Positions 9,647 to 10,983 of a stretch of 11,073 nucleotides of DNA are shown here, piece after piece. The notes under the pieces were generated by a model. The model was not told the origin of the DNA. It saw nothing but the letters and a program-made list of their open reading frames with translations, and did not search any database. Each line of letters starts with the position of its first letter. Positions within the stretch are counted from its first letter, which is position 1. The translations under genes were made by a program, and so were the position numbers. The DNA is from Oscillospiraceae bacterium (GTDB taxonomy: Bacteria > Bacillota > Clostridia > Oscillospirales > Ruminococcaceae), in contig DNUB01000078.1 in assembly GCA_003508605.1 (NCBI GenBank), positions 592 to 11,664 on the forward strand, written 5' to 3'.

Positions 9647-10477
9647 CTACCGACAAAGCAGCATCTCCGCTTCTTCTCTGCTTAAGGCGGGGTTTAAAGC
9701 CGCATTGACGCCCATGGCAATAATCTCCCCATAGCCGTTCACAACGGAATCTATATTGCGGGGCGTTACCATACAAGCTTCTCCCGAGCTTTCGGCAATA
9801 CTGTCAAGGTCAATAACGGTAGGTACGCCTATAGCGATTACCTTTGTTTCCATATTATACTTATTTATAGCCGTGCGGTTTCCTCCCACTCCACTGCCGG
9901 GGCAGATTCCCGTGTCGGTGAGCTGAATGGTTTTCGCTAACCGTGAAAGGTCGCTGCAGGCAAGGCTGTCTATCAGGATTATTGCGGCAGGCAGTAATGA
10001 TTTTGAAATGCTGTGAAGGTATTCCGAGCTTTCTAAGCCCGTTTGCCCCATCACGCCCATTTCCAAAACCGCCACAGGTCTGAGTCCAAGCTCCCCAAAC
10101 TCCCTTGTACCGGATAAATGGGCGGTAGCGGGTATTTTATGAACCGTTCTTGCGCCTAAGCTGTCGGGAGTTATCCATTCGTTGCCGAGTCCGGCTACCA
10201 ATACCGTTTCACGGGAAGCGACCGGCTTTAAAAGCCGATTTAAATAATGAGCAAGGGCAAGGCTTACCGAAGCTTTATTCTCTTTGTCGGGGTCGTTTTC
10301 ACAGTGAATTGTAATATATCTTCCCGCAGGCTTTCCTATAAGCCTTTCGCCCTGTTTTCCGACGGTGACGCAGGTAGCCTTGACTCCGTTTTGAAGCTCC
10401 TCGGTCATCCTTATACCTTTTTCGCTTAACTCTGCGGCAAATTCCACCGCCAAATCTGTTCTTTTTATTTTAAACAC
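9647..10477 (-). CDS. gpr: Spore germination protease GPR
   Basis: A 276-aa protease that degrades the small acid-soluble proteins coating spore DNA during germination. It is recognised by the N-terminal RTDLAVE motif (residues 6-12), GLGNEWITPDSLGARTV (97-112), the VMGQTGLES block (142-150), IILIDSLAC (166-174) and the Gly-rich GICPGSGVGGNR (190-201). Asp105 and Asp170 match the two aspartates proposed as catalytic in Bacillus GPR. It is shorter than the Bacillus enzyme (about 370 aa), with only five residues before RTDLA, so the removable propeptide is minimal; I believe short versions are common in Clostridia. The start is a GTG at 10477. AGGA (10487-10484) lies six bases upstream and a second GAGGAG overlaps the start codon; an in-frame TGA just upstream blocks any longer form. 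It is divergent from rpsT, as in Bacillus, but no spoIIP follows it here: the next gene is the convergent MATE gene. Confidence 0.95.
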   Translation of the reverse strand: MFKIKRTDLAVEFAAELSEKGIRMTEELQNGVKATCVTVGKQGERLIGKPAGRYITIHCENDPDKENKASVSLALAHYLNRLLKPVASRETVLVAGLGNEWITPDSLGARTVHKIPATAHLSGTREFGELGLRPVAVLEMGVMGQTGLESSEYLHSISKSLLPAAIILIDSLACSDLSRLAKTIQLTDTGICPGSGVGGNRTAINKYNMETKVIAIGVPTVIDLDSIAESSGEACMVTPRNIDSVVNGYGEIIAMGVNAALNPALSREEAEMLLCR

Positions 10478-10580: not shown

Positions 10581-10609
10581 TTGAATTCAATCGCAATTTG
10601 TGGTAAAAT
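10581..10609 (+). promoter_or_regulatory. Sigma-A promoter of rpsT
   Basis: TTGAAT (10581-10586), 17 bases, TAAAAT (10604-10609): both boxes are one or two changes from consensus at ideal spacing. Transcription should start near 10616, giving a leader of about 120 nt before the rpsT ATG. Confidence 0.8.
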
Positions 10610-10615
10610 ATATCG

Positions 10616-10737
10616 AGCAGAAAAATAAGCCAATAGGATACAGCTCCTTGCGGCATATAAATGTCTGTATTCACGCTATATAGAATTAAATAAAATATAC
10701 AGACTGCACATTGATAACATTGCAAGGAGGTGTAACA
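10616..10737 (+). promoter_or_regulatory. Structured rpsT leader with sequestered ribosome binding site
   Basis: Segment 10639-10653 can pair with 10720-10734 in 14 of 15 positions. The core is CTCCTTGC (10644-10651) with GCAAGGAG (10722-10729), which covers the Shine-Dalgarno; the set includes two G-U pairs and has one G-G mismatch. Inside it, GTCTGTAT (10663-10670) pairs perfectly with ATACAGAC (10697-10704). The same GTCTGTATTC region can instead pair with GGATACAG (10636-10643), which overlaps the outer part of the first helix. This is the layout of a translational switch. S20 represses its own translation in E. coli, so feedback by S20 is a reasonable inference; I do not recognise this leader as a known RNA family. 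Confidence 0.65.
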
Positions 10738-10983
10738 ATGCCTAATATTAAATCTGCAAAGAAGAGAGTGCTGGTTTCCAAGGTTAGACAGGAACGCAAT
10801 AAGGCAGCCAAAACTCAGCTTAAAACCGTTATGAAGCAGGCAAGAGCGGAAGGCGCCGACGATGCAGCAAGACTTGCGGCAGTAAGAAAGCTTGATAAGG
10901 CAGCTGGCAAGGGTCTTATCCATAAGAACAAGGCAGCCCGTCTTAAATCAAGAATGGCTAAGAAGGCTTCCGCTACCGCATAA
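10738..10983 (+). CDS. rpsT: 30S ribosomal protein S20
   Basis: An 81-aa basic, helical protein that binds 16S rRNA in the lower body of the small ribosomal subunit. The N-terminal [11 protein letters not shown] is the standard S20 opening, and the [15 protein letters not shown] segment near the C-terminus is also characteristic. The length is within the usual 80-90 aa. The ATG at 10738 follows a perfect AAGGAGG (10724-10730) by seven bases; reading from upstream (10711) would add nine residues that include the Shine-Dalgarno itself. It has its own promoter, leader and terminator, so it is a single-gene transcript. It is divergent from gpr with 260 bases between the start codons. Confidence 0.98.

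Follow-up and report, generated by a model that had tools for sequence, protein, structure and literature searches.

The 5′ leader of rpsT, the last gene in the 11,073-nucleotide stretch of Oscillospiraceae DNA analyzed here (the window), is, by a narrow balance of probability, a functional cis-acting translational switch that masks the Shine-Dalgarno (SD) sequence. The model confines the switch to one lineage and leaves its effector unspecified; that S20 itself is the effector is a guess, which we regard as possible rather than probable. Computation established two pairings of the leader RNA, their mutual exclusion, the conservation of the three strands involved in three species, and a predicted folding order. 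A two-state switch with a competing 5′ hairpin is a likelier design than a static hidden SD.

rpsT (10738 to 10983; this and all leader features below are on the forward strand) encodes ribosomal protein bS20, of 81 amino acids, and its product matches PF01649 with 72.1 bits, over the cutoff. A divergent open reading frame at 9647 to 10477, which we take to be the spore protease gene gpr, lies upstream. Between the two is a predicted σA-type promoter (10581 to 10609) composed of TTGAAT (10581 to 10586), a 17-base spacer, and TAAAAT (10604 to 10609), and its position predicts a transcription start at about 10616. The predicted leader is therefore 122 nucleotides long (10616 to 10737), with the SD, AAGGAGG, at 10724 to 10730. 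The order of promoter, leader, SD, and bS20 reading frame puts the element in the 5′ untranslated position of an r-leader, given the predicted start. The source genome (G000) is a draft, 76% complete.

The preliminary description of this DNA reported that the segment T10639 to G10653 can pair with T10720 to A10734, which contains the whole SD, at 14 of 15 positions. This was borne out, with two of the pairs being G-U (G10652-T10721 and G10653-T10720); the sole mismatch is G10643 facing G10730, the final G of AAGGAGG. The eight-base core, CTCCTTGC (10644 to 10651) with GCAAGGAG (10722 to 10729), is likewise a perfect match, as is the reported inner 8-bp helix between 10663 to 10670 and 10697 to 10704. 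We refer to the 10 pairs (2 of them G-U) between the anti-SD strand CTCCTTGCGG (10644 to 10653) and the SD strand TTGCAAGGAG (10720 to 10729) as masking helix H2. When leaders were dinucleotide shuffled with the SD held fixed, 5 of 3,000 reached at least 14 of 15 pairs and 24 of 3,000 reached an uninterrupted helix of at least 10 pairs (G-U allowed), and the observed pairing is real and more than chance. RNAfold gave −33.6 kcal/mol for 10617 to 10760 (z = −3.20; none of 200 shuffles was as stable). In the window, AAGGAG is predicted to be paired with a probability of ~1.0 and the last G of the SD with a probability of 0.0.

A second conserved block, GCCAATRGGA, was overlooked in the preliminary description. 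It pairs with the anti-SD strand to form a 5′ hairpin, H1 (10629 to 10654), in which GCC (10629 to 10631) pairs with GGC (10652 to 10654) and, across a 3-by-3 internal loop, AGGA (10635 to 10638) pairs with TCCT (10645 to 10648). The same hairpin, GCC/GGC plus (A/G)GGA/UCCU, can be drawn in two other genomes of the genus, G092 and G068, with hairpin loops of 6, 7, and 5 nucleotides and energies for H1 alone of −7.3, −6.9, and −7.2 kcal/mol (window, G092, and G068, respectively, here and below). H1 and H2 are mutually exclusive because both need the same strand. In folds of successively longer transcripts, H1 was part of the minimum free energy (MFE) structure at all pre-SD lengths tested (72 of 72, 83 of 83, and 22 of 22) and persisted for 3, 1, and 1 lengths past the SD start. 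In the finished leader H2 beats H1 by 4.5, 4.7, and 3.0 kcal/mol, and AAGGAG is paired with probabilities of 0.98 to 1.0 in all three species. All folding energies for H1, H2, and the prefix folds refer to 37°C.

With H1 formed, the best predicted fold still sequesters the start codon together with the final three bases of the SD; the small hairpin responsible, AGGUGU-AACA-AUGCCU (10728 to 10743 of the window), has an energy of −3.4 kcal/mol, and comparable folds are predicted for G008 and G005. Leaving the SD completely open while keeping H1 costs 7.3, 8.5, and 5.3 kcal/mol relative to the MFE. In these models, H1 thus takes away the competitor yet does not bare the whole ribosome binding site.

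We examined the distribution of the element in a sample of 71 genomes of the genus. rpsT was found in 58 of them; loci were taken from 50, leaving 8 genomes with rpsT that contributed no locus to the leader count, and 47 leaders were readable, the other 3 loci lacking the start motif used. Leaders were delimited for this count by a simple promoter pattern, with a set length as fallback. The anti-SD strand is present in 3 of the 47 leaders, those of the window, G092, and G068, and is identical in the three; the remaining 44 have no complementary strand covering four bases of GGAGG. Uninterrupted Watson-Crick pairing to the SD core extends over 8, 8, and 5 pairs, the last becoming 8 with one U-G. 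A DNA search of the 71 genomes matched 42, with whole-leader matches only in G092 (81%) and G068 (71%); the remaining matches cover the SD-gene part or the promoter part. The same promoter hexamers are present in G092 and G068, CTCCTTGCGGC is unchanged in all three species, AAGCCAAT(A/G)GG is likewise kept, and GCCAATRGGA is nearly invariant, while the sequence after rpsT has diverged.

The inter-arm stretch (window 10661 to 10709) spans ~50 nucleotides in the window; G092 has a longer, divergent version and G068 has none, a length pattern (window, L145, and L146) that looks like an insert inside a loop. The left and right arms of the inner helix are accordingly not conserved in G092 and have no counterpart in G068, so this helix, described earlier as closing the structure, was ruled out as a functional part.

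The trio is not, judging from its sequences, a set of near-identical strains. Four-fold sites of trpS differ at 28 of 135 positions between the window and G092, 59 of 116 between the window and G068, and 54 of 114 between G092 and G068; the window is about as far from G068 as from noncarriers (e.g., 56 of 118 for G016). A trpS tree split the trio from the other nine genomes with a support of only 70. rpsT is slower than trpS, with differences at 14 of 40 and at 10 of 41 of its four-fold sites. Conservation between the window and G068 is also high in the promoter region immediately upstream; part of the arm identity may therefore be regional, and for the same reason we put no probability on arm conservation.

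In H2, all 30 cells (10 pairs in three species) pair, and the single change is one sided, U-A to U-G in G068, with the pair kept. In H1, all 18 counted cells pair (six of the seven pairs, the seventh having been left out of the count because of the alignment), again with a single one-sided change, A-U to G-U in G092. Neither helix has a two-sided compensatory change among the three sequences, for which a shuffle control is uninformative with three rows, so covariation does not prove the H1/H2 structure. The preliminary description had proposed that covarying arms in relatives would support masking and that their loss from relatives keeping promoter and gene would count against it. The result is divided: the arm is kept in two other species, it is missing from six genomes that keep the promoter, SD, and gene (G016, G008, G001, G033, G091, and G078), and no two-sided change was seen.

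A covariance model of the trio, R1, matched its members with E values of 2.7e-28, 3.8e-24, and 7.8e-13 and found nothing better than 0.011 beyond them in the 71 genomes. Four of the weaker matches (G091, G016, G008, and G033) are rpsT leaders, and pairs were broken in the three alignments inspected. In a search of 394 genomes of the order that scored few candidates in each, R1 matched the window's own genome alone. A dispersed repeat or mobile element was ruled out, there being one R1 match per trio genome. No second leader copy was found in the window's genome, where the other two matches span only 14 bases at an E value of 2.91. Across six genomes, CTCCTTGCGGC was counted 18 times. Flanks were read at 12 of these places: 2 are the window and G092 leaders, and the other 10 bear no resemblance to the leader. 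In the trio genomes it has 7 occurrences besides the leaders, and none of the 5 with flanks read was leader-like.

Sister leaders in the genus (L003, L004, L005, L009, and L149) have another 5′ element, in most of them GAAAG-AATTG-CTTTC, without the anti-SD strand; L004 has AAAAG/CTTTT in place of GAAAG/CTTTC, by eye a two-sided change. These leaders also bear TGCTTT...AAAGCA, and that of G001 (L005) has an extra ~60 nucleotides inside the leader compared with G016.

To set the masking in context, we screened 122 distinct rpsT leaders from the genus and other bacteria, of which 119 were scored for the cost of opening the SD and 110 had a control of 40 shuffles. The screen is rough: the promoter finder misplaced some leaders (e.g., L005), 3 of the 122 went unscored, and 9 of the 119 had no shuffles. 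Opening costs of 7.7 (G092), 7.6 (window), and 5.8 (G068) kcal/mol ranked 2, 3, and 8 of 119, compared with shuffle means of 3.8, 3.5, and 3.9 kcal/mol; shuffles reached them in 0, 1, and 5 of 40 cases, respectively. The idea that rpsT leaders mask their SD in general was rejected, as only 2 of 110 leaders had costs never reached by shuffles and 6 of 110 had costs reached at most twice. The preliminary description held that a hidden SD implies translational control, a reading that proved half right: predicted masking is shared with two other species, 44 of the genus leaders lack the anti-SD strand, and masking of a static kind is less likely than a switch.

The first-ranked leader in the screen, with an opening cost of 11.9 kcal/mol (0 of 40 shuffles), was L076 from a Ruminococcus metagenome-assembled genome. 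L076 and its relatives L069 and L072 have in common a leader whose hairpin loop is conserved. R2, the model built from them, matched 48 of 394 genomes of the order searched (E up to 0.1); among the best 8 of the 48 matches, four were directly upstream of rpsT and four were not. The four upstream matches (G367, G336, G321, and G397) belong to genus g33, in the window's own family. R3, a model of seven leaders made from the three R2 founders and the four g33 sequences, had matches at E values up to 0.01 in 46 of the 396 genomes sampled from the family, representing 11 of 126 genera, and rpsT lay downstream at all 30 of the 30 best loci among the 46 matches. The R3 leader (L231 to L260, L069, L072, and L076) presents the loop UUUCCUCUCAGUC, then a CUUAUCCRAAUAAG hairpin, and an optional first hairpin; the match in L252 ends ~150 nucleotides before the start codon, and L258 is without the loop core.

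R3 covaries. In 31 distinct rows, whose alignment was fitted to the model and so favors pairing figures, 98.5% of 343 cells pair, against 35 to 51% for slid partners. Six pairs show two-sided changes, a number reached by 7 of 500 shuffles, and two-sided changes fall in 24 cells (shuffle mean, 7.7; 0 of 500 as high). In a MAFFT alignment of the seven, with the structure drawn from the alignment, 98.9% of cells pair versus 34 to 53% when slid, and two-sided changes occur in 3 pairs, a number reached in 39 of 500 shuffles. At the seven founder loci no Rfam family matched the leader; a single tRNA in L076, outside the leader, was the only Rfam match among 17 related loci. General SD masking in R3 leaders was ruled out, the mean opening cost in 28 leaders (4.6 kcal/mol) being no higher than that of shuffles (4.7 kcal/mol). 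Matches of 6 to 9 bases between loop and SD are common in R3 leaders.

The window leader resembles R3 leaders in having hairpins with a pyrimidine-rich loop or strand before rpsT, but it differs in that R3 covaries and does not mask above shuffles. Homology between them found no support: the R3 model matched none of the trio loci (L002, L145, and L146) at E values up to 10. Further kinds of long rpsT leader were seen (L078, L082, L083, and L086; L065 and L092; and L037 and L044), with TGTCTCAGT starts, CCCTCTCATGCG hairpin loops, or TGTCTCA words. None of these eight has an R3 match at an E value of 0.1.

bS20 is a primary 16S-binding protein. Mimicry of 16S rRNA was considered and set aside after a word comparison with one 16S sequence, that of G033, in which shared words were 7 bases at most and the H1 region shared no word of 7 or more. 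The shared 7-base words include GCAAGGA and TAGCTTA, a weak lead; both presumably lie in helix 44, an S20-binding helix. As a separate observation, TAGCTTAACC in the G033 16S (L160), at a position that we likewise take to be helix 44, resembles TAGCTTATCC of the R3 leader at 9 of 10 positions by eye, which by our own estimate is about chance level over the whole 16S.

Rfam release 15 yielded no family at the gathering score in the window, and membership in a described Rfam family was ruled out. Four subthreshold matches near the leader look like chance. The phrases "S20 leader," "rpsT leader," and "bS20 leader" were absent from the open-access literature searched, and no description of an S20 leader in Firmicutes was found there (subscription papers and supplementary tables fell outside its scope). 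Structured 5′ leaders of ribosomal protein genes limited to one lineage, as here, are the subject of Eckert and Weinberg (2020; PMC7247131); in Table 1 of that paper no r-leader is assigned to S20, and the window leader is known from sequence and predicted folds. One L20 row of the same table prints rpsT, which we take as a slip for rplT (PMC7247131).

As to E. coli, the preliminary description goes further than the literature in stating that S20 autoregulates there. In its part on S20, a 2024 review regards autogenous repression in E. coli as neither confirmed nor refuted and states that conserved mRNA structures of the kind typical for these operators were not found (PMC10931766). The E. coli system, as treated there, concerns the same gene with a proposed translational autoregulation; unlike the window, where a strong SD is predicted to be masked, it starts at a weak UUG and has yielded no conserved mRNA structure (PMC10931766). 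The start in the window is ATG (10738 to 10740).

How might the leader work? The single pyrimidine-rich strand CUCCUUGCGG (10644 to 10653) would have two partners, and pairing with one would exclude the other. At an early stage of transcription the strand would pair with the GCC...AGGA just upstream, forming H1; once the SD had been transcribed, the strand could shift to it, forming H2 and shutting the ribosome binding site. We infer that cells use this switch, such that translation would require either that ribosomes arrive ahead of H2 formation or that a factor favor one of the folds. If S20 is that factor, surplus protein would favor the closed fold, giving autogenous repression. Against such a switch, default closure is unexpected in the leader of a gene whose product must be made in large amounts, and the opening cost in G068 is unexceptional relative to shuffles (5 of 40).

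The conserved element could instead be H1 alone, acting in mRNA 5′ protection or protein binding, with the SD match incidental. Among nine other subclade leaders folded, five (G016, G001, G091, G005, and G094) are predicted to begin with a hairpin, unrelated in sequence, inside the first 45 nucleotides and lack an anti-SD strand, and the family-wide R3 hairpins covary, yet their masking is no better than that of shuffles. H1 alone, however, needs no 10-pair match to the SD, whereas the match is kept in three species and flips the predicted fold, and the opening cost exceeds the shuffle mean in each of them; we consider this explanation unlikely.

SD masking is the usual design of RNA thermometers, and the masking helix might answer to temperature or to another non-S20 signal, such as ribosome loading or transcription speed. 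A two-state fold with a gap of 3.0 to 4.7 kcal/mol and a predicted folding order would suit such signals. The gene, however, encodes a ribosomal protein, and for such genes control through binding of the encoded protein to the leader is known (PMC7247131); moreover, no Rfam family matched the window, and we judge a non-S20 signal distinctly improbable. Chance complementarity between a pyrimidine-rich stretch and a purine-rich SD, kept by shared ancestry, is very unlikely. Some shuffles do reach the observed pairing, the scan covers many leaders, and the promoter sequence upstream is likewise conserved; but two blocks are nearly unchanged in three species even though about half of the trpS four-fold sites differ between the window and G068, and relatives at a similar distance lack both blocks.

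Of these explanations we retain the SD-masking switch, with a 5′ hairpin as competitor. More broadly, and only tentatively, rpsT in this family may be controlled by at least two unrelated, fast-evolving kinds of leader, both autogenous S20 operators. In the window's clade this would be a three-strand SD switch (anti-anti-SD, anti-SD, and SD) folding in order during transcription; the other kind would be the covarying two- to three-hairpin leader with the UUUCCUCUCAGUC loop, found in at least 11 genera. If true, this reading would give bS20 the conserved mRNA structures that the reviewer, in the part on S20, reports as not found (PMC10931766). A masked SD and an alternative early hairpin drawing on one strand make a concrete, testable candidate for an S20 operator, and the covarying leader in other genera of the family allows the question of S20 control to be tested with real phylogenetic support.
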